Shown: positions 1-54,062 of the stretch, in pieces
Numbering within the stretch: position 1 is the stretch's first letter
Layout: each line of letters starts with the position of its first letter
Source of the DNA: Hymenobacter guriensis
GTDB taxonomy: Bacteria; Bacteroidota; Bacteroidia; Cytophagales; Hymenobacteraceae
Assembly: GCF_015773195.1 (NCBI RefSeq)
Contig: NZ_JADWYK010000003.1
Span: 248,001 to 312,000 of the forward strand
Direction of reading: 5' to 3'
Length of the DNA: 64,000 nucleotides
Program-made: the position numbers and the translations under genes
Notes under the pieces: model-generated
The model's input: only the letters and a program-made list of their open reading frames with translations
What the model was told of the DNA's origin: nothing
Databases searched by the model: none

Positions 1-24
1 TTGAGCCGGTTCGGCTACCAGTAG
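1..24 (+). CDS. Possible C-terminal end of GTPase Era (partial)
   Basis: Reading from base 1 gives seven codons ending in RFGYQ and a TAG stop. Era proteins commonly end in a short segment with an aromatic-glycine tail (RxFGY-like), and Era often lies just upstream of Der in Bacteroidota, so this may be the end of era. Only eight codons are visible, so the identification is a guess from context. The TAG stop coincides with the first bases of the inverted-repeat element at 22-109. Confidence 0.3.
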   Translation: MSRFGYQ

Positions 25-109
25 TAGTGAGTAGTTGGTATTGAGTAATGAGACAGGTCTTTATTGATATTCAAGAGTCTCACTACTCAATACCAACTAC
101 TCACTACTA
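22..109. repeat. Short inverted-repeat element (MITE-like)
   Basis: Bases 22-55 are repeated in inverted orientation at 76-109 with about 33 of 34 positions matching. The arms start TAGTAGTGAGTAGTTGG and enclose a 20-base loop. The left arm closely matches the left end of the element carrying the four-helix-bundle gene at 13170-13617, so this looks like a non-coding derivative of the same family. It fills most of the gap before der and would form a strong hairpin in the transcript. Confidence 0.75.
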
Positions 110-6447: not shown

Positions 6448-6819
6448 TCACTTCAACCGGCCAATCACCTTGAAGTTGTCGAAGACGTGCGCGGTGTGCG
6501 GGGCGTCTTTATCCAGCTCCCCGGTGAGGTCCTGGCCGGCCCAGTGCTCGTAGTGGTTGCCGCGCCGCCACAGGCGGGAGCGGGTCACGTCGTAAATCTG
6601 CCCCTGGTACGCCACCCAGATTTCGTCCCGGTCCTGACCGTTGCGCAGTGCAAGCTGGGCGCGGGTATAGGTTTCTAGTTGCTGGTTGCTGGTTGCCAGT
6701 TCAGGCAGGCCCGCCGAAGGCAAGGAAGTTGCCCCAGTGGCGTCTGCGTCTGCAGTAGTGGCAAGCTTTTCTGCTTCCGCAGAAGAATCATCAGGCGCAA
6801 CAGGCTTTGGCGTAGACAT
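6448..6819 (-). CDS. Cytochrome b5-like heme/steroid-binding domain protein
   Basis: 123 residues. The first 48 are a low-complexity Ala/Ser/Thr/Glu linker; the rest matches the cytochrome b5 fold: YTRAQLALRNGQDRDEIWVA, YQGQIYDVT, W..GNHYEHWAGQDLT and a terminal helix with APHTAHVFDNF. Classical b5 heme ligands lie in HPGG and a later His. Here the first is replaced by GNHYEHWAG, so heme binding through His is possible but the geometry is not canonical, as in small bacterial b5-like proteins. It has no signal peptide and follows the arginase-family gene by 32 bases on the same strand, suggesting co-transcription. Confidence 0.7.
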   Translation of the reverse strand: MSTPKPVAPDDSSAEAEKLATTADADATGATSLPSAGLPELATSNQQLETYTRAQLALRNGQDRDEIWVAYQGQIYDVTRSRLWRRGNHYEHWAGQDLTGELDKDAPHTAHVFDNFKVIGRLK

Positions 6820-6851
6820 TAACTAGAAACTAAAAACCATAAACCAGCAAC

Positions 6852-8000
6852 TTACCCTAAAAGGGCCTGGGTAAGAATCCAGCGGTTGGGCAGGTCGCCC
6901 TGGGAGGCGTGCAGGTAGTCCTGGTAGCTGCAGGGCACAATGCGCTTCACGGAGCTGTCGGCCATGCTTTCCACTTCCAGCCACCACTTTTCGGTGCGGC
7001 GGGCTTTGTAGAACACCAGCTTGGCCGGCGTGCCCGGCAGCCCAATAGCGTAGCGCATAAAGCGGCGGCTCTGGAAGTCGGTTTCGCCTAGGCGGTGGTA
7101 GAACCCTTCGATGAAGTACCAGAGCATGGTAGCGGCGGCAAACGCGGCCAGGCCATGCTCGTCGCGGCAGGGGCGGTAGCCGTAGAGGCCAAAGGAACTG
7201 AGCTGGTCGTTGTGGCCGGCGTACCAGCATAGCTGCGACGCTTCCTCGCCCGTGAGGCCGTAGGGGCTGGCCGGGTAGTAGCCAGGGAAATCGGGCCAGC
7301 GCAGGGCCGAGAGGTCGAAGCTGAGCATATCGGCCTGCCGAATGAGTGGCTCGGCCTGGCGCACGTCGGTGTGTACCTCGCCCAGGCGCAGCGTTTCGAA
7401 GTGCAGCTTTTCCAAGGTGCCCAGCACGCCCGGCGGCACCAGGTACTGCTGGTGCCCGATCTGGCTGAAGCAGAACAGAAAGTTCGGCTCGTGCATCAGA
7501 ATGCGGCGCAGATGCGTGTCTTCGGCCGTGGCGCCATCGTGCTCGGCCATGTCCACGCGGGCATCAATGGTAACGTGGCTGACGGGGCGCTCTAGGGTTT
7601 CGTAAGCCAGAAACTGCCCGTAGTCGAGGTCCTGTGAGCCGCCCAGCAATAGCGGAATGGTCTTGTTTTCCAGCAGAGCCGCCACAATCTCGCGCAGCCG
7701 CAGGTAGGTGTCTTCCAGGGTAAGGCCGGGCCGCAGGTTGCCCAGATCTACCAGCCGGATGGGGCCGGTACCTTTCTGCAGCTGGTAAAACCGTTCCCGC
7801 ACCGCGTTGGCCCCGTGGGCAGCGGGAGGGCCGGCTGCGCTGCCTCGCCACTCGTCCAGCCCAATCAGGGCCAGATCGGCCGTGCGCCAGTCGGGAAACG
7901 TATCCACAAAGCGCGAGGCGTAGGCCCCCAGCGTGGTGGGAGCCGGCGCAGCAGCCAGCGGGTCTTCGGGCAATGGATCAAAAAAGATAGCGAGATTCAT
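6852..8000 (-). CDS. Arginase/formimidoylglutamase-family protein, metal ligands degenerate
   Basis: A ureohydrolase (arginase/agmatinase) fold protein of 382 residues, probably cytoplasmic. The three signature blocks are present but altered. GGDHS becomes GGSQDLD (near residue 121), DAHxD becomes DARVD (near 147), and SxDxDxxDP becomes SFDLSALRW (near 250). Four to five of the usual Mn-binding His/Asp positions are therefore changed, so arginase or formimidoylglutamase activity is doubtful. Proteins of this type are often annotated formimidoylglutamase in Bacteroidota. No histidine-degradation (hut) gene is nearby. It lies upstream of the cytochrome b5-like gene and may be its functional partner. 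Confidence 0.8.
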   Translation of the reverse strand: MNLAIFFDPLPEDPLAAAPAPTTLGAYASRFVDTFPDWRTADLALIGLDEWRGSAAGPPAAHGANAVRERFYQLQKGTGPIRLVDLGNLRPGLTLEDTYLRLREIVAALLENKTIPLLLGGSQDLDYGQFLAYETLERPVSHVTIDARVDMAEHDGATAEDTHLRRILMHEPNFLFCFSQIGHQQYLVPPGVLGTLEKLHFETLRLGEVHTDVRQAEPLIRQADMLSFDLSALRWPDFPGYYPASPYGLTGEEASQLCWYAGHNDQLSSFGLYGYRPCRDEHGLAAFAAATMLWYFIEGFYHRLGETDFQSRRFMRYAIGLPGTPAKLVFYKARRTEKWWLEVESMADSSVKRIVPCSYQDYLHASQGDLPNRWILTQALLG

Positions 8001-10763: not shown

Positions 10764-13172
10764 ATGAATCGTACCATCAAAAAAGTAGCTGTATTAGGCT
10801 CCGGGGTGATGGGCTCGCGCATTGCGTGCCACTTCGCCAACATCGGGGTGCAGGTGCTGCTGCTCGACATTGCCCCCAAGGAACTGCTGCCCGCCGAAGA
10901 AGCCAAAGGTCTGAAGCTGGACAACCCGGCGGTGAAAAACCGCATTGTCAACAGCTCGTTGCAGGCGGCCGTAGCGGCTAACCCCTCACCGCTGTACCGC
11001 AAGGCCGATGCCGCGCGCATCAAAACCGGCAACTTCGACGACAACCTCAAGGACATTGCCGGCTGCGACTGGACGATTGAGGTAGTAGTGGAGCGCCTCG
11101 ATATCAAAAAGAGCCTGTTTGAGCGCGTGGAGCAGTTCCGCAAGCCCGGCACGCTCATCACCTCGAACACCAGCGGCATCCCGATTCATATGATGACGGA
11201 GGGCCGCTCCGACGACTTTAAAAAGTATTTCTGCGGCACCCACTTCTTCAACCCGCCGCGCTACCTGAAGCTGCTCGAAATCATTCCGACCCCGGACACG
11301 GACCAGTCGGTGGTAGATTTCCTGATGCACTACGGCGACCTGTACCTGGGCAAAACCACCGTGCTGGCCAAAGACACGCCCGCTTTCATTGCCAACCGCG
11401 TGGGCGTTTTCGCCATCATGGACGTGGTGCAGGTGATGAGCCAGCTCGGCCTCACGGTGGAGGAAGTAGATAAACTCACCGGTCCGGTTATTGGCCACGC
11501 CAAATCGGCTACCTTTCGTACTTCCGACGTGGTGGGCCTGGATACGATGATCAACGTAGCCAACGGCCTCGCCCAAAACCTGCCGAATGATGAAGCTAAA
11601 GCGGTATTCCAGCTGCCGGACTTCATCAAAAAGATGGCCGAGAACAAGTGGCTGGGCGACAAAACCGCCCAGGGCTTCTACAAGAAAGTGAAGGGAGCCG
11701 GCGGCAAGTCCGAAATTCAGGCTCTGGATCTGAACACGCTGGAATACAAGCCCAGCGCCAAGGTGAAGTTTGCCACGCTGGAAGCCACCAAGCCGATTGA
11801 GAAACTGGCAGACCGCTTCAAGGTGCTGGCTGCTGGTAAAGACAAAGCTGGAGACTTCTACCGCAAGACCTTCGCAGGTCTGTTTGCCTACGTGAGCAAC
11901 CGGATTCCGGAAATCACCGACTCACTCTATAAGATTGACGACGCCCTGCGCGCCGGCTTCGGCTGGGACATGGGCCCCTTTGAAACCTGGGACGCCCTGG
12001 GCGTACAGAAAGGACTGGAGTTAGCACAGGCTGAAGGCAAGACTGTTGCTCCCTGGGTAGAGGAAATGCTGGCCGCCGGCAACGCTGCCTTCTATAAGGT
12101 GAGCGAGCAGGGCGTAAAGCAGTTCTACGACATTGATTCGAAGAGCTACAAGGCTATTCCGGGCGTCGAGAACTTTATCATTCTGGATAACCTGCGCGCT
12201 ACAGGCAAAGTGCTGTGGAAAAACGCCGGGGCCTCGGTGCTCGATATGGGCGACGGAATTCTGAATGTGGAGTTCCACTCAAAGATGAACGCGCTGGGCT
12301 CCGACGTAATTCAGGGTCTGCTGAAAGGCGTGGAACTGGCCGAAAAGGACTTCCGCGGTCTAGTAGTCGGCAACGATGCGCCTAACTTCTCGGCCGGCGC
12401 CAACCTGGGCCTCGTGTACATGTTCGCGCTGGATCAGGAGTACGACGAGCTGAACCTGATGATTGCTCAGTTCCAGCAGGCTATGATGCGCATGCGCTAC
12501 AGCAGCATTCCGGTGGTAGGCGCCCCACACGGCCTAGCCCTAGGCGGCGGCTGCGAGTTGAACCTGCACTGCGACCGGGTAGTAGCAGCCGCGGAAACCT
12601 ATATGGGCCTCGTGGAATTCGGCGTGGGCCTGATTCCGGGCGGCGGTGGCTCCAAGGAAATGACCCTGCGCACGGCCGCCAAGTACGAGGAAGGTGAGCC
12701 GGAGTATAACCTGCTCCGCAACACCTTCATGACGATTTCCATGGCGAAGGTGTCTACCTCGGCCCACGAAGCTTTCGACCTGGGCTTCCTGCGCCGCGGC
12801 GACGAAGTGGTGGTGAACTCCAACCGCGTGCTGGCCCAGGCTAAAGCTGCGGCCATTGAGCTGGCTGAAGACGGCTACACCATGCCCGTACAGAAAACCA
12901 ATATCAAAGTACACGGCAAAGGCGCCCTTGGCATGTTCATGACGGGCGTACACGCCATGAAGGAAGGCCGCTACATCTCCGACCACGACGTGAAGATTGC
13001 CAACAAGCTGGCCTACATCATGTGCGGCGGCGACCTGAGCAGCCCCACCGAAGTGTCGGAGCAATACCTGCTGGACCTGGAGCGTGAGGCTTTCCTCTCG
13101 CTGACCGGTGAGCGGAAAACGCTGGAGCGCATCCAGTCGATTCTGACCACCGGCAAACCGCTTCGTAATTAG
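10764..13172 (+). CDS. 3-hydroxyacyl-CoA dehydrogenase / enoyl-CoA hydratase (FadN type)
   Basis: Bifunctional beta-oxidation enzyme of 802 residues in the FadN order: NAD-dependent hydroxyacyl-CoA dehydrogenase first, hydratase/isomerase-like domain last. The Rossmann motif GSGVMGSRIA is at residue 12, the dehydrogenase HFFNPPRYLKLLEI near 155, and the crotonase oxyanion region PHGLALGGGCELN near 588 followed by GLVEFGVGLIPGGGG, with its Glu, near 615. It hydrates enoyl-CoA and oxidises the hydroxyacyl-CoA. The gene is followed by thiolase, as in fadN-fadA-fadE operons. Its TAG stop is the first three bases of the inserted element at 13170-13617. Confidence 0.95.
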   Translation: MNRTIKKVAVLGSGVMGSRIACHFANIGVQVLLLDIAPKELLPAEEAKGLKLDNPAVKNRIVNSSLQAAVAANPSPLYRKADAARIKTGNFDDNLKDIAGCDWTIEVVVERLDIKKSLFERVEQFRKPGTLITSNTSGIPIHMMTEGRSDDFKKYFCGTHFFNPPRYLKLLEIIPTPDTDQSVVDFLMHYGDLYLGKTTVLAKDTPAFIANRVGVFAIMDVVQVMSQLGLTVEEVDKLTGPVIGHAKSATFRTSDVVGLDTMINVANGLAQNLPNDEAKAVFQLPDFIKKMAENKWLGDKTAQGFYKKVKGAGGKSEIQALDLNTLEYKPSAKVKFATLEATKPIEKLADRFKVLAAGKDKAGDFYRKTFAGLFAYVSNRIPEITDSLYKIDDALRAGFGWDMGPFETWDALGVQKGLELAQAEGKTVAPWVEEMLAAGNAAFYKVSEQGVKQFYDIDSKSYKAIPGVENFIILDNLRATGKVLWKNAGASVLDMGDGILNVEFHSKMNALGSDVIQGLLKGVELAEKDFRGLVVGNDAPNFSAGANLGLVYMFALDQEYDELNLMIAQFQQAMMRMRYSSIPVVGAPHGLALGGGCELNLHCDRVVAAAETYMGLVEFGVGLIPGGGGSKEMTLRTAAKYEEGEPEYNLLRNTFMTISMAKVSTSAHEAFDLGFLRRGDEVVVNSNRVLAQAKAAAIELAEDGYTMPVQKTNIKVHGKGALGMFMTGVHAMKEGRYISDHDVKIANKLAYIMCGGDLSSPTEVSEQYLLDLEREAFLSLTGERKTLERIQSILTTGKPLRN

Positions 13173-13617
13173 TAGTGAGTAGTTGGTATTGAGTATTGAG
13201 ATTTTCTGGCTGTGCATCAGTATAAGGAGCTGAAGGTTTGGCAGAAGGCGATGAGCATAACCAAGCTCACATATCAGCTTTGCGCCGGATTTCCGGATAA
13301 CGAACGGTACGGTCTGGTTTCGCAAATGCGGCGGGCTGCTGTGTCTTTGCCTTCCAACATTGCGGAGGGTGCAGGCCGAAATTCCAAGCCGGAATTCCGG
13401 CAGTTTCTGGCCATAGCAAATGGCTCAGCTTACGAACTGGAAACCCAATTCTTGCTAGCTGCTTCCTTCGGTTATGTTTCAGAAGAAAATCTTAATACCA
13501 TTTCCTCGCAACTCACAGAATTGCAGAAAATGCTGTTTGGCCTACAGAAGTCACTGACTTAAAATCTGCTGGAGCAGGACAGCATCTAACTACTCACGTC
13601 TCACTACTCAGTACTAA
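13170..13617. mobile_element. Inverted-repeat element carrying a four-helix-bundle (S23-like) gene
   Basis: The left end, 13170-13202, begins TAGTAGTGAGTAGTTGGTAT and matches the left arm of the short element at 22-109 almost base for base. The right end, about 13585-13617, is an imperfect inverted copy ending in AGTACTA. Between them is one gene of 116 codons. The element exactly fills the space between the stop of the FadN-type gene and the start of thiolase. No transposase is present, so the gene product or an outside enzyme would have to move it. Related S23 genes occur inside rRNA intervening sequences. Confidence 0.65.
13212..13562 (+). CDS. Four-helix-bundle protein (23S rRNA intervening-sequence / S23 family)
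   Basis: 116 residues with the family hallmarks: KELKVWQKAMSITKLTYQL at the N terminus, FPDNERYGLVSQMRRAAVSL and PSNIAEGAGRNS in the middle, FLAIANGSAYELETQFLLAA after it. The family forms small homo-oligomeric helical bundles, is named for proteins encoded in intervening sequences of Leptospira 23S rRNA, and its function is unsettled; related Avd proteins help diversity-generating retroelements. It starts at GTG 13212, inside an inverted-repeat element. It interrupts a metabolic operon on the same strand but has no obvious link to fatty acids. No reverse transcriptase is seen in the window. Confidence 0.88.
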   Translation: MHQYKELKVWQKAMSITKLTYQLCAGFPDNERYGLVSQMRRAAVSLPSNIAEGAGRNSKPEFRQFLAIANGSAYELETQFLLAASFGYVSEENLNTISSQLTELQKMLFGLQKSLT

Positions 13618-13621
13618 AGAA

Positions 13622-14800
13622 ATGAATGCATATATCGTAGCTGGTTACCGCACGGCCGTTGGCAAAGCCAACCGCGGCGGCTTCCGCTTCACCCGCCCCG
13701 ATGACCTCGCCGCCGACGTCATCAAGCACTTGGTAGCCTCGGTGCCAGCCCTCGACCCCACCCGCATCGACGACGTGATTGTGGGCAACGCCGTACCGGA
13801 AGCAGAGCAGGGCCTGCAGATGGGCCGCCTGATTTCGCTGCTGGCCCTGCCCATGAACGTCTCGGGCCTCATCGTGAACCGCTACTGCGGCTCGGGTGTG
13901 GAAACCATTGCTATGGCTGCCGGTAAAATTGCCGCCGGTATGGCCGACTGCATCGTGGCCGGTGGCACCGAGAGCATGAGCCTAGTGCCCACCGTAGGCT
14001 GGAAAACCGTGCCCAATTACAAGCTGGCCCAGCAGCACCCCGACTACTACCTCGGCATGGGCCTAACCGCCGAAGCCGTAGCCCAGGACTACAAAATCAG
14101 CCGCGAAGACCAGGACCAGTTTGCCTACAACTCTCACCAGAAGGCTATTAAAGCCATTCAGGAAGGCAAGTTCAAGGAGCAGATTGTGCCCGTAACGGTA
14201 GAGGAAACTTACCTCGACCAAGCTACTGGCAAAAAGAAAACCCGCTCCTTCGTAGTGGACACTGACGAAGGACCCCGCGCCGATACTTCGGTAGAAGCGC
14301 TGGCCCGTCTGAAGCCGGTATTTGCTGCCAATGGCTCCGTAACGGCCGGCAACTCGTCCCAGACTTCCGATGGTGCGGCTTTCGTCATCGTTATGTCGGA
14401 GCGCATGGTGAAGGAGCTGAACCTGGAGCCCATTGCTCGCATGGTAACCTACGCCACCGAGGGCATCGATCCGCGCATCATGGGTATGGGCCCCATCAAA
14501 GCCGTGCCGAAGGCATTAAAGCAGGCTGGCATGAAGCTCGACGATATCGACTTGTTTGAGTTGAACGAGGCTTTTGCTTCTCAGTCCATTGCGGTAGTGC
14601 GTGAACTGGGCATAGATGAAAGCAAGCTCAATGTGAACGGCGGAGCTATTGCCCTTGGTCACCCGCTGGGTTGCTCCGGCGCTAAGCTCAGCATTCAGCT
14701 GTTCCACGAGCTACGTGCCCGCGGCCAGAAGTACGGCATGGTAACCGCCTGCGTAGGTGGTGGTCAGGGCGTAGCAGGCATCTACGAGTTGCTCAAATAA
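13622..14800 (+). CDS. Acetyl-CoA acyltransferase (thiolase, FadA type)
   Basis: Final step of beta-oxidation: thiolytic release of acetyl-CoA from 3-ketoacyl-CoA. The nucleophile Cys is residue 89 in NRYCGSGVETI. The C-terminal catalytic His and Cys lie in NGGAIALGHPLGCSGAK (near 340) and VTACVGGGQG (near 378). 392 residues is the standard length. It follows the FadN-type gene, separated only by the four-helix-bundle element, whose right end stops four bases before this ATG, and is closed by a strong terminator. Degradative (FadA-like) rather than biosynthetic thiolase is inferred from the neighbours. Confidence 0.95.
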   Translation: MNAYIVAGYRTAVGKANRGGFRFTRPDDLAADVIKHLVASVPALDPTRIDDVIVGNAVPEAEQGLQMGRLISLLALPMNVSGLIVNRYCGSGVETIAMAAGKIAAGMADCIVAGGTESMSLVPTVGWKTVPNYKLAQQHPDYYLGMGLTAEAVAQDYKISREDQDQFAYNSHQKAIKAIQEGKFKEQIVPVTVEETYLDQATGKKKTRSFVVDTDEGPRADTSVEALARLKPVFAANGSVTAGNSSQTSDGAAFVIVMSERMVKELNLEPIARMVTYATEGIDPRIMGMGPIKAVPKALKQAGMKLDDIDLFELNEAFASQSIAVVRELGIDESKLNVNGGAIALGHPLGCSGAKLSIQLFHELRARGQKYGMVTACVGGGQGVAGIYELLK

Positions 14801-14993: not shown

Positions 14994-16781
14994 ATGGAAG
15001 TAACCAACCAACTTGTGAAAGGCGGCGAGTTTATCATCAAGGAAACCGACGCCCAGGATGTATTCACGCCCGCCGATTTTTCGGAGGAGCAGAACATGAT
15101 GCACCAGACTGCTCTGGACTTCGTGGATAAGGAAGTAATGCCCCTGCTGGACCGCCTCGATAATCACGAGGAAGGCCTTATGCGTGGCCTGATGGAAAAG
15201 GCTGGCGAGCTGGGTTTGTTTGGGGTGAGCATTCCCGAGCAGTACGGCGGGTTGGACATGGACTTCCCCACGTCGCTGCGCGTGACCGAGGGCGTGGGTG
15301 GTGGTCACTCGTTCCCGGTAGCTTTCGCGGCCCACACGGGCATTGCCATGCTGCCCATTCTGTACTTCGGCAATGAGGAGCAAAAGGCCAAGTACCTGCC
15401 CGGCCTTACCAATGGTCAGCTGATGGGGGCTTACTGCCTAACCGAGCCTGGCTCCGGTTCCGACGCCCTGGGCGCCAAAACCAAGGCTATGCCTACCGAG
15501 GACGGCGAGCATTATGTGCTCAACGGCCAGAAAATGTGGATTACCAACGGCGGCTTCGCTGACGTATTCATCGTGTTTGCCCAGGTGGATGGTGACAAGT
15601 TCACCGGCTTCATCGTGGAGAAAAACACGCCCGGTCTGAGCCTCGGCAACGAGGAGCACAAGATGGGCATCAAGGGCTCCTCCACGCGCCAGGTCTTCCT
15701 GTCCGACGTGAAAGTACCGAAGTCGGCGGTGCTGGGCGAAATTGGCAAAGGCCACCTCATTGCCTTCAACATCCTGAACATCGGTCGCATCAAGCTGGCC
15801 GCCGCTTGCTTAGGAGCTACCAAAATGGCTGCCACGCTGAGCGTGAAATACGCCAACGAGCGGGTGCAGTTCAAGCTGCCCATCAGCAAGTTCGGTGCTA
15901 TCAAGTATAAGCTGGCTCAGCAGGCTGTGCGCATCTACGCCGTGGAATCGGCTATCTACCGCGCTGGCATGGACATCTACCGCATGGAGCAGGAATTGCT
16001 CAGCAAAGGCCAGAGCCACAACGAAGCCCTACTGGGAGCCGCCCGCGAGTTTGCCGTGGAGTGCGCCATCCTGAAAGTAGAAGGCTCGGAAGTGCTGGAC
16101 TACGTGGTGGATGAAGGCGTGCAAATCTACGGCGGTTACGGCTTCTCAGCCGACTACCCCATGGACCGCGCCTACCGGGATTCGCGCATCAATCGTATCT
16201 TCGAAGGCACCAACGAAATCAACCGCATGCTGGCCGTCGACATGATCCTGAAGAAGGCCATGAAGGGCGAACTGGACCTGATGGGCCCGGCCCAGGCCGT
16301 GCAACAGGAGCTGATGGCCATTCCAGACTTCAACCTGGAGGAAGAAACCGGCCTGTTTGCTGCTGAAAAGAAAACCATTGCTAAGCTGAAGAAGGCCATT
16401 CTGATGGTAGCTGGTACGGCCGTGCAGAAGTACATGAACTCGCTCGCCAAAGAGCAGGAAGTACTGATGAACATTGCCGACATGGCCATCAAGGTTTACA
16501 CTGCCGAAAGCACCCTGCTGCGCGTGGAGAAGGAAGCCGCTACCAAAGGTGAAGAAGCCGTTTCGACGCAGATCGACATTGCTCGTGTGTACCTCTATGA
16601 CACCGTAGACCAAGTAAACAAGTTTGGCAAAGACGCCATCGGCACCATGACTGAGGGCGACGAGCAGCGTCTGCTGGCCATGGGCCTGAAGCGCTTTACC
16701 AAAGCCGACCTCTACAACGCCAAGGAGGCGCGTCGGCGCATTGCTGACCACATGATTGCGGCCAACGAGTACACCTACTAA
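14994..16781 (+). CDS. Acyl-CoA dehydrogenase (long/very-long-chain type)
   Basis: FAD enzyme that introduces the 2,3 double bond into acyl-CoA, the first oxidation step. The FAD-binding stretch AYCLTEPGSGSDA is near residue 146 and WITNGGFADVF near 182. The catalytic-base segment IYGGYGFSADYPMDRAYRDS is near 378 and FEGTNEINRML near 403. The 595-residue length with a roughly 160-residue C-terminal helical extension is like the VLCAD class. It is a separate transcript with its own candidate promoter/operator, so the MarR protein may control it independently. Electron-transfer flavoprotein genes are not in this window. Confidence 0.94.
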   Translation: MEVTNQLVKGGEFIIKETDAQDVFTPADFSEEQNMMHQTALDFVDKEVMPLLDRLDNHEEGLMRGLMEKAGELGLFGVSIPEQYGGLDMDFPTSLRVTEGVGGGHSFPVAFAAHTGIAMLPILYFGNEEQKAKYLPGLTNGQLMGAYCLTEPGSGSDALGAKTKAMPTEDGEHYVLNGQKMWITNGGFADVFIVFAQVDGDKFTGFIVEKNTPGLSLGNEEHKMGIKGSSTRQVFLSDVKVPKSAVLGEIGKGHLIAFNILNIGRIKLAAACLGATKMAATLSVKYANERVQFKLPISKFGAIKYKLAQQAVRIYAVESAIYRAGMDIYRMEQELLSKGQSHNEALLGAAREFAVECAILKVEGSEVLDYVVDEGVQIYGGYGFSADYPMDRAYRDSRINRIFEGTNEINRMLAVDMILKKAMKGELDLMGPAQAVQQELMAIPDFNLEEETGLFAAEKKTIAKLKKAILMVAGTAVQKYMNSLAKEQEVLMNIADMAIKVYTAESTLLRVEKEAATKGEEAVSTQIDIARVYLYDTVDQVNKFGKDAIGTMTEGDEQRLLAMGLKRFTKADLYNAKEARRRIADHMIAANEYTY

Positions 16782-16895
16782 ACCACGTATTCGCGCGGAT
16801 TTTGTGGACGATTAAACCAAACAAGAAGGCCTCGTTTTCACGAGGCCTTCTTGTTTGGTTTAATCGTCCACAAAATCCGCGCGGATCCGTGGTTT
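16781..16895. repeat. 115-bp near-perfect palindrome, probable two-way terminator
   Basis: Two arms of 55 bases pair at about 53 positions around a five-base loop. The inner stem AGAAGGCCTCG-TTTTCA-CGAGG forms the tip, and the outer part contains GCGCGGATTTTGTGG. It starts at the last base of the acyl-CoA dehydrogenase stop codon and overlaps the last bases of the convergent gene. It would end transcription from both sides and resembles dispersed GCGGAT repeats. Confidence 0.9.
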
Positions 16896-18348
16896 ACTTT
16901 ATCACAATCTTATTCAGCATCAGGGCCGCCGACTTCTTGTTGGGGCGGCTCACCCCGATGATAGTTTTGGCATCGAGCCAGGTGGTAAAATCTTTCACGT
17001 AAGCCAGGCTTTGGTCCGAGGCTACGTTCAGTCCCAACTTCTTTGGCTCCGTGACCACCCCGGTGCGGGCATTTACCCGGCGTAGGTAGAGGTCTGACTT
17101 ATTCTTGAGCTTCTCCTGGGTGACAATCTGCAACTCATTGCCAAAAGCAGCTACCCGGTAACCTATACCGGCGAAACCCTCGGCGGGTGACGCAACCTGG
17201 TCCTTGGCGATGATGCTGTGCCAGGTGGGTGTCTGGAACTGGTTGTAGCCAAACAAGTGCAGCTCGCGGGCGTGAGTAGGGGAGTTGTCGCCGCCTTCTT
17301 CGTACTTCTTCTCGGCCATGACCACCAAGGCACTATCGGGGGTGAAGACGATGTCCGACAGATACACGTCCTCAAGGCGCTTGGCGTTGGTTTGGCTGGC
17401 CTTGTTTACCTCGGCCAGGTATTCGGGCGTGAAGCGGAACTCAGGGGCAAATTTCAAGTCGCCGCCCTGGGTGGGGTCGAACTTGATGAGCTTGAGGCTG
17501 TAGTACTGGCCGGTTTCGCGTTCCGTGCAGATAGCCGCGCCAAAGATGACGCCGTTTGGCTGCATCGTGAACTTGGTATCGAACACGTTTACCACCTTGC
17601 CACCGAACGTACCACCAACGGCCACGGCCATTACCTGCACATCGTTGGAATCGAGGCGGTAGCGGCGTACAGCTATTTTCTTCATTCCGTCGCTTACCAG
17701 CGTCACATACTGGGTGCCGTCGTTGGCCACGTGCACTGCCGGCGAAAAGAAGTCTCCTAGGTCATGGAAATCGTAAGTGCGGTCCTTGATTTTGGCGAGT
17801 TGCTGATCGTAGAGCGTCGCGCTGATAGCGCGAATCTGCACCCCACGGGTCAGGTAGCGGAAAGCCAGCAGGCGCTTGCCATCGGGCGAAACAGCTATGC
17901 CGGGCCGCCGGTCGCGGGGGGCAGCGTCCATCAGCTTTTTAGCGCCCCCTTTCTGGCCGGTACTCAGCTCTACGGGCACTACGGCCAGGTACTGAGCGGC
18001 GTCATCCTTATGATGGACGACTACCAGGGCCTGGGTTGGATTAGCAGCAAAGGTTTCTATGCTTTCGCCCGTCGCTATGGGAATAGTGGCCGTCCACACC
18101 TTCTTTAGCTCTATATCATACCGCTCAACGGTGTACTCCGAAGCTGACTTGTGGCCTAGCACTACAAAGTCGGTGGTGCCAGGTATGGGCAGCGTTTTGC
18201 GCGGCACCCGCTGGTTGTAGCGGTCGTCGGTTTGCTCCGGCAAGTAGCTGAACGCGGTCTTCTTTACACTCTGGGCAAGCGCGGGTGCTGTTTGCAGAAG
18301 ACCCACCAGAATTAGAGCGGCTCCAATATATTTCAGGATAAAATGCAC
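16894..18348 (-). CDS. Secreted protein, probable beta-propeller-like
   Basis: 484 residues from a GTG start, with a signal peptide (ILKYIGAALILVGLLQTAPALAQ, cleavage after AQ). The mature part has recurring strand-rich blocks typical of WD/YVTN-like propellers, for example PGIAVSPDGKRLLAFRYLTR near residue 150 and FTPDSALVVMAEKKYEEGG near 345. I see no catalytic motif. It carries no T9SS tail; the end is ALMLNKIVIK. It is probably periplasmic or surface-located with unknown function. It converges on acyl-CoA dehydrogenase and has its own promoter region upstream at about 18350-18450. Confidence 0.7.
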   Translation of the reverse strand: MHFILKYIGAALILVGLLQTAPALAQSVKKTAFSYLPEQTDDRYNQRVPRKTLPIPGTTDFVVLGHKSASEYTVERYDIELKKVWTATIPIATGESIETFAANPTQALVVVHHKDDAAQYLAVVPVELSTGQKGGAKKLMDAAPRDRRPGIAVSPDGKRLLAFRYLTRGVQIRAISATLYDQQLAKIKDRTYDFHDLGDFFSPAVHVANDGTQYVTLVSDGMKKIAVRRYRLDSNDVQVMAVAVGGTFGGKVVNVFDTKFTMQPNGVIFGAAICTERETGQYYSLKLIKFDPTQGGDLKFAPEFRFTPEYLAEVNKASQTNAKRLEDVYLSDIVFTPDSALVVMAEKKYEEGGDNSPTHARELHLFGYNQFQTPTWHSIIAKDQVASPAEGFAGIGYRVAAFGNELQIVTQEKLKNKSDLYLRRVNARTGVVTEPKKLGLNVASDQSLAYVKDFTTWLDAKTIIGVSRPNKKSAALMLNKIVIK

Positions 18349-52265: not shown

Positions 52266-52347
52266 GAAACTGTCATTCCGAGCGAAGCGAGGAATCTGGG
52301 TTGGCCTGTAACCCAGATTCCTCGCTTCGCTCGGAATGACAGTTTCA
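52266..52347. repeat. Palindrome after uvrA (TGTCATTCCGAG family)
   Basis: GAAACTGTCATTCCGAGCGA and its continuation through AATCTGGGTT are perfectly complementary to the right arm (37 bases per arm, 8-base loop). This is one of the two most regular copies of a dispersed palindrome family in the window (others at 53985 and the more divergent 6260). It probably ends uvrA transcription. Confidence 0.9.
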
Positions 52348-53984: not shown

Positions 53985-54062
53985 TGTCATTCCGAACAAA
54001 GTGAGGAATCTGAGGTACCTGCTAGCAGCCGACCCAGATTCCTCACTTTGTTCGGAATGACA
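53985..54062. repeat. Palindrome after tpiA (TGTCATTCCGAA family)
   Basis: TGTCATTCCGAACAAAGTGA and its continuation through GGAATCTG are complementary to the right arm at 28-30 positions across about 20 bases of loop. The arm resembles the uvrA palindrome (TGTCATTCCGAG...AGGAATCTG) with changes in the middle. The stem starts one base after the tpiA stop codon and probably serves as its terminator. Confidence 0.88.

Follow-up and report, generated by a model that had tools for sequence, protein, structure and literature searches.

An S23 gene between inverted 7-mer arms in Hymenobacter guriensis, a candidate intervening-sequence-like mobile element of messenger RNA

A stretch of 64,000 nucleotides (nt) of the Hymenobacter guriensis genome (assembly GCF_015773195.1, contig NZ_JADWYK010000003.1, positions 248,001 to 312,000; the whole stretch is called the window here) contains a 448-bp element, set between a fadB-like and a fadA-like gene, in which a gene of the S23 four-helix-bundle family lies between inverted arms of degenerate tandem 7-mers. 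We find that gene-less 7-mer tracts tend to carry the units (that is, the repeated 7-mers) of their own genome's S23 genes and that, at the junctions read, such elements occupy the gap from stop codon to start codon and are exchanged whole. We lean, by a small measure, towards an intervening-sequence-like mobile element residing in messenger RNA (mRNA) whose S23 ring recognises its 7-mers. That the gene-plus-arms design recurs across many phyla of bacteria suggests a kind of mobile element that is widespread and has been little recognised.

S23 genes and their 7-mer arms

The gene at 13212–13562 matches PF05635 (E=1.9e-39) and also stands above the cut-off of TIGR02436, and the structure predicted for its product with AlphaFold2 (AF2; predicted local distance difference test (pLDDT) 96.8) has the fold of the solved S23 protein 2gsc (template-modelling (TM) score up to 0.96) and is near 2rld (0.80–0.84), which bears out the four-helix-bundle membership that an earlier reading of the letters alone (the original prediction) had proposed. 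Both solved entries hold five chains, and a Xanthomonas S23 protein is a toroidal homopentamer (PMC4990558). Three orthologues that share the unit of the window gene (unit A) have the start MHQ at the equivalent position. Judged by substitution patterns, S23 is under purifying selection: the ratio of non-synonymous to synonymous divergence (dN/dS) is 0.02–0.06 among four unit-A orthologues, with dS often near saturation, and 0.02–0.10 within a unit type or site where dS is estimable, many pairs being saturated.

The left arm of the element (13170–13202) agrees at 31 of 33 bases with the left arm (22–54) of a gene-less palindrome at 22–109 and equally, at 31 of 33, with the reverse complement of its right arm (77–109), as the original prediction had noticed; the two arms of the palindrome agree with each other at 32 of 33. 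Within the S23 element the left and right arms make a weaker pair (25/33 at the best ungapped shift), with a pairing score of 14.0 that is barely over the 95% point of mispaired controls (13.5). Terminal inverted repeats around the S23 open reading frame (ORF) are present and the whole element has a predicted RNA fold with z −5.7 and paired ends, but the right arm is a weak partner in this copy. Folding of each arm alone gave no structure, the solo palindrome has a predicted fold of −51.5 kcal/mol (z −11.3), and an Rfam search of the whole window returned no match. The fadB stop codon forms the first three bases of the 5′ arm (13170–13172), the stop codon of the frame entering from upstream forms the first bases of the left arm of the palindrome (22–24), and the 3′ arm of the S23 element ends 4 bases ahead of the fadA start codon. 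This overlap with stop codons, the 7-base periodicity of the arms and four further S23 genes in the genome go beyond the original prediction.

Each of the five PF05635 matches in the genome is flanked by inverted arms with a unit of their own: AGTAGTG, GGGACTT (period 7–8), GTGCTTA, GTAATTA and an 8-mer like GTGAAATG. Across the genus, PF05635 was found in 50 of 61 genomes. For 71 distinct S23 genes, mostly the stronger ones among the listed PF05635 matches (four duplicate loci and one fragment, of locus L050, were left out before counting), the upstream flank was compared with the reverse complement of the downstream flank and scored against mispaired flanks; pairing exceeded the 95% point of mispaired flanks in 59 and the maximum of 300 mispairings in 23. 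Repetition at a lag of 7 (24-base window, 75% identity) was present in 44% of 142 S23 flanks in the genus and 52% of 156 from outside it, the highest other lag being 8 (5–6%) and no lag other than 7 rising above 6.4%. In the control it occurred in 37 of 967 genus flanks of other genes more than 1500 nt from any S23 gene; an earlier control (6.5% of 1116, 21% of 378) had been contaminated by neighbours of S23 genes, and the genus control was redone. Over 857 kb we counted 101 tracts of period 7, compared with 1–23 for each of the periods 5, 6 and 8–13 and 51 for the harmonic period 14.

The arms are also polar. Upstream tracts have G over C in 45 of 50 cases in the genus and 43 of 47 in the other set, downstream tracts have C over G in 32 of 40 and 46 of 51, respectively, and the median tract length is 32 nt (about 4.6 units) in both sets. 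One S23 subfamily (L013, L080–L082) has arms with a mainly 8-base rather than 7-base period. Two S23 genes, those of L050 (genome G024) and G058:C9, are broken by an in-frame TAG, an apparent decay of single copies.

A scan of 84,980 species genomes yielded at least 561 S23 relatives, and the best 80 of these include Bacteroidota, Acidobacteria, Planctomycetes, Chloroflexi, Desulfobacterota-type groups, Alphaproteobacteria, candidate phyla and others; the nearest named relative among the matches listed is from Hymenobacter aerophilus (91%), and 14 well-known control genomes contained no S23. In these best 80, arm pairing passed the 95% point in 63, the 99% point in 41 and the maximum of 400 mispairings in 20, and the best arm period was 7 in 50 of the 63. 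Among plasmids, S23 was present in 29 records, of which cyanobacteria account for at least 20. Ten records were read, picked from 20 listed and all cyanobacterial, and seven of these loci exceeded the 95% point of mispairings, several with near-perfect 7-mers; among the remaining loci, that of Picosynechococcus is built of 8-mers and scores lower, the pair in Stanieria is short, and none in Calothrix PCC 7716 is convincing. Phage records gave no S23 match. On three cyanobacterial plasmids (L291, L294 and L295) the S23 genes stand inside gene clusters of clustered regularly interspaced short palindromic repeats (CRISPR), flanked by cas6 and cas4 in two cases and by cas10 and a Cmr3-family gene in the third.

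A purely mutational origin, in which 7-mers expand by slippage, palindromes arise via template switching and S23 genes are carried along, could draw on the unique-sequence inner stems of several hairpins, which suggest template switching, and on the long near-perfect 7-mer arrays at some loci (for example, on cyanobacterial plasmids). We regard it as improbable, given the dominance of period 7 in the tract counts above, the association with one gene family across phyla, the consistent polarity of the arms and the order of variant units, which by inspection is alike in copies at different sites.

Gene-less copies and exchange at junctions

The proposal that gene-carrying and gene-less forms share arms is upheld. 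In this genome, a gene-carrying form coexists with several gene-less forms with common arms: a whole-genome search with 13150–13640 gave 15 places at E <= 0.001, of which one is the element, two are the arms of the palindrome (E 2.9e-8 and 1.0e-7) and 12 lie elsewhere. Furthermore, 46% of the 7-mer tracts that lack a gene carry a unit agreeing at 6 or more of 7 bases with that of an S23 gene in the same genome, compared with 15 ± 7% for permuted S23 sets (p=0.001). This own-unit test covers 50 gene-less tracts from 14 genomes, in stretches mostly around S23 genes (L048 was left out as overlapping), and 22 of the 50 come from this genome (G000) and its closest relative (G003, about 92% identical DNA).

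The link between gene and unit is also seen in Mantel tests of S23 identity against unit similarity (r 0.12 for all genes, 0.18 for the diverse set and 0.35 within the genus; p=0.001 each), which used the 114 of 151 S23 genes with a lag-7 arm and removed same-site pairs within the genus only. Genus pairs at 60–80% S23 identity share 5.55 of 7 unit bases (n=38), and lower identity classes share 3.49–4.29. Per genome, the sum of three 7-mer pattern counts rises with the number of PF05635 matches (rho 0.57; median 10 in the 11 genomes without a match and 48 in the 50 with one), a correlation in which some PF05635 matches are fragments, pattern hits overlap and S23 arms themselves add a few hits. 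Hits of unit A are raised in genomes with a unit-A S23 gene (five, chosen from the fetched genes; p=0.001) and hits of a second unit, E, in the four with a unit-E S23 gene (p=0.002). The backwards pattern of unit A, intended as a control, seems to match a real further unit (GAGTTAT-like) and is thus an unclean control; it later served as the third pattern in the summed counts. The own-unit, Mantel, pattern-count and cognate statistics all ignore the kinship of the genomes.

The original prediction had likened the gene-less palindrome to a deletion derivative of the gene-carrying form, a view that the loops do not sustain. When five gene-less loops were compared with the interior of the S23 element, one of ten comparisons reached p=0.02 and the rest had p>=0.14, and the loops of those five copies showed no convincing similarity to each other. 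At two other loci (L276 and L289), hairpins combine long inner stems of unique sequence with 7-mer arms, a hint that copying may have folded back.

At the junctions read, elements fill the stop-to-start gap between genes. By coordinate comparison, the fadB–fadA gap holds an S23 gene in 10 of 61 genomes (one of the others is cut at a contig end, and 6 of 30 gaps were not delimited automatically). In G003 the S23 gene at this junction belongs to another subfamily (71% protein identity) and has unit E where G000 has unit A; the flanks are 91–92% identical, and the swapped segment runs from the stop codon to a few bases short of the start codon. Over a 224-kb stretch of the same two genomes, two gene-less junctions (C23:102081 and C23:153212) differ wholly in unit, G003 has an unrelated palindrome in place of the one at the start of the window and the hairpin at C23:157014 has no clear counterpart, whereas the other hairpins keep their unit, some with altered arms.

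A junction at pdxA provides an S23-free site: G000 has an S23 element, G003 a 51-nt spacer after the stop codon without S23, and the spacers in other genomes vary too much to reveal the ancestral one. With 12 further places in the genome and S23-free sites in relatives, the element is neither solitary nor fixed at one site in all relatives, and in this respect the original prediction survives. An ordinary insertion with target duplication is not supported, as no duplication is visible in this one occupied and S23-free pair (the spacer is replaced) and elsewhere the exchange is of whole elements. At the pdxA site the upstream gene seems to take its last codons and its stop from the arm (L049, 9660–9690); the gene ends in VRRA where G003 has RSRV.

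The atpF–atpH gap permits a wider comparison. A similar-sized 7-mer hairpin fills it in 29 of the 30 genomes of highest AtpF identity (of 61), and when these hairpins were sorted by eye into six unit types, with the odd hairpin of G032 left untyped, the type changed at least 16 times over 29 genomes on a quick tree of neighbouring genes (shuffled types gave a mean of 18.9 changes and a value as low as that observed in 24 of 200 cases; with its own label for G032 the count is 17). Eight of 11 further genus genomes have 7-mers at this site; the palindrome in G041 is unrelated, the 58-nt gap of G046 contains no 7-mers and in G012 none are clear. Outside the genus, hairpins of 7- or 8-mers occur in g5, g2 and g4, and the gap of 55–69 nt in three genomes from g3 and g6 lacks a hairpin. 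Loops of hairpins with different units are dissimilar (mean z 0.35, 367 pairs), which indicates that whole hairpins are exchanged; persistence of the loop while the arms are rewritten was considered and rejected on the same evidence.

Exchange of whole elements could instead reflect homologous recombination between species, with the element itself not mobile. In its favour, inspection shows likeness between some atpF–atpH alleles of one unit from species far apart, such as G027 and G040, and loops that share a unit have some similarity (mean z 2.0, median 0.9, 68 pairs). Flank identity in switched pairs, however, is near background up to 25–50 nt from the junction, although the pair G015/G040, with a lower identity of 92% in the last 50 nt upstream, leaves room for a very short tract. 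On balance we consider recombination of this kind unlikely.

Another possibility, which we hold to be somewhat less remote than recombination and still rather doubtful, is that the hairpins serve the host as intercistronic RNA elements (in stabilisation, processing or translation), that S23 is a regulator that binds them and that nothing about them is selfish. This is close to what has been proposed for TAACTGA heptamers, which likewise stand directly before start codons (PMC4679880), and it would accord with the filling of the atpF–atpH gap by one similar-sized hairpin, with the purifying selection on S23 and with the stability of S23 sites over species. It is harder to reconcile with the 16 or more unit changes in the 29 typed genomes, with the genomes (G041, G046, G012 and the three from g3 and g6) without a clear 7-mer hairpin at this junction and with the retention of hairpins in S23-less genomes.

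Proposed mechanism and known systems

The closest known system is the intervening sequence of ribosomal RNA (rRNA) genes, which is excised by RNase III without ligation (PMC4990558). As in the window element, an S23 ORF there lies between terminal inverted repeats with heptamers upstream of the S23 start, and the sizes are near (428–444 nt compared with 448 bp; PMC4990558). The likeness to rRNA intervening sequences drawn in the original prediction is strengthened by published heptamers that precede the S23 ORF in one such sequence, which usually has three in tandem (GACAGAT) and two in some strains (PMC4990558). Unlike rRNA intervening sequences, the window element stands between protein genes and has gene-less copies with shared arms; S23 decay is inferred for intervening sequences of the species studied (PMC4990558), whereas purifying selection is indicated here. 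As the element lies outside an rRNA gene, we do not file it as an rRNA intervening sequence, yet it may work like one. The S23 genes themselves are described as being without known function (PMC4990558).

We infer that S23 recognises the 7-mers, and propose that its pentameric ring would do so on the G-rich strand of the tandem array, perhaps with one unit per subunit. The protein would bind its own arms and, in trans, all hairpins with an equal unit, and binding might help these hairpins to spread or persist, the gene-less ones being passengers. In the transcript, base pairing between the arms could give a long stem open to cleavage by RNase III, like that of rRNA intervening sequences. A gap between two operon genes would tolerate such a cut, which would explain where the elements are located. 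Movement may occur via host replication and repair acting on the hairpins, given that neither a transposase nor a reverse transcriptase was found; this is the least supported step of the proposal.

S23 is the sole gene recognised inside the window element, and the absence of a transposase from it agrees with the original prediction. REP (repetitive extragenic palindromic) sequences and REPINs with a RAYT protein provide a precedent for gene-carrying and gene-less palindromes in one genome and a trans-acting protein. Elements of that kind moved by a Y1 (RAYT) transposase, or a retroelement that uses an Avd-like S23, would fit the palindromic, intergenic, multi-copy nature of the elements and the resemblance of the predicted S23 fold to Avd of diversity-generating retroelements (TM 0.75–0.81, with E-values of 0.02 or weaker and 9–11% identity; PF22296 and Avd-model matches are weak and below the cut-off). 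In contrast to those systems, the genome (29 contigs) has no match to PF01797 (Y1 transposase) or PF00078 (reverse transcriptase), families found in 5/14 and 3/14 control genomes, respectively, and we regard both origins as highly improbable. In the sharing of ends between gene-less and gene-carrying copies within one genome, the elements resemble miniature inverted-repeat transposable elements (MITEs); unlike MITEs, the gene-less copies have no convincing similarity to the interior of the gene-carrying form, which has no transposase, and no target duplication is visible (one pair).

Cyanobacterial short tandemly repeated repetitive (STRR) sequences are tandem 7-mer (heptamer) repeats, which to our knowledge have not been tied to S23; here, STRR-like 7-mer arms flank S23 genes on cyanobacterial plasmids. 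TAACTGA and other tandem heptamers are intergenic, with many near start codons, in Bacteroidetes, Cyanobacteria and Beggiatoaceae (PMC4679880). They share with the window element tandem 7-mers between genes but are described as direct repeats with no source protein, and the terms 'S23' and 'four helix' are absent from the main text of that paper. In Geobacter, four or five tandem heptanucleotides are taken as binding sites of a regulator, and one class is drawn as strand-switching pairs, as in the arms described here; 'S23' is likewise absent from the main text (PMC2700814). No paper among the matches listed from the open-licence literature ties S23 genes generally to inverted heptamer arms.

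A broader view, which we offer as speculative and would not yet expect to hold, is that S23 rings and tandem-7-mer hairpins form one large class across phyla, with a subfamily-specific 7-mer code that would act in trans, without a transposase and with whole-cassette replacement by hairpin-guided template switching; such a class would unify rRNA intervening sequences, STRRs, TAACTGA and other heptamer repeats. Intervening sequences and bacterial heptamer repeats have so far been treated separately. With one S23 subfamily linked to one 7-mer unit, S23 acquires a likely ligand and the origin of the repeats can be put to the test, and the swapping of whole hairpins between close relatives at junctions that stay fixed represents an unexplained mode of genome change.

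Several observations weigh against an intervening-sequence-like mobile element with S23 recognition. The arm test was failed by 12 of 71 genus and 17 of 80 multi-phylum S23 genes, some S23 units have a period of 8, loops differ between copies and 54% of gene-less tracts have no S23 unit match in their own genome at 6/7. Hits of unit E are also raised in genomes with a unit-A S23 gene (p=0.006), so that richness in 7-mers is partly a trait of the genome and the cognate test of pattern counts is weak when taken alone. Hairpins persist without a PF05635 match: G001, G004, G015, G018 and G055 keep the one at atpF–atpH. Cutting of these mRNAs by RNase III is something that we infer. Finally, several S23 subfamilies keep one site across species, indicating that the gene moves slowly; frequent jumping of the S23 gene itself is unsupported on the same evidence. 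Other S23 genes of equal subfamily and unit stand at different sites.

Further features of the window

Table 1. Coordinates and strands of the S23 element, the gene-less palindrome and associated features in the window
Feature	Position	Strand	Remarks
5′ arm of S23 element	13170..13202	+	degenerate tandem 7-mers, unit AGTAGTG / AGTATTG; lag-7 tract 13162–13205
S23 / four-helix-bundle gene	13212..13562	+	116 aa, GTG start
3′ arm of S23 element	13584..13617	+	inverted, 7-mer unit as in 5′ arm
fadB-like gene	10764..13172	+	3-hydroxyacyl-CoA dehydrogenase / enoyl-CoA hydratase domains
fadA-like thiolase gene	13622..14800	+	downstream of S23 element
Left arm of gene-less palindrome	22..54	+	sequence match to S23 5′ arm
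Loop of gene-less palindrome	55..76	+	without similarity to S23-element interior
Right arm of gene-less palindrome	77..109	-	inverted partner of 22..54
7-mer tract, unit GGTTGCT, first of pair	6662..6705	+	differs from S23-element unit; conserved in relative G003
7-mer tract, second of pair	6817..6855	-	unit complementary to 6662–6705

The window also holds palindromes of other kinds (TGTCATTCCGA... type), perfect or near-perfect and without 7-mer periodicity, at 52266–52346, 53985–54062 and 16779–16896. Similar REP-like palindromes fill intergenic gaps in relatives, yet this genome has no Y1 transposase match; the palindrome at 16779 has a 57-base arm. Within 6662–6855, inverted 7-mer tracts (unit GGTTGCT) stand about 110 bases apart and are conserved in G003.

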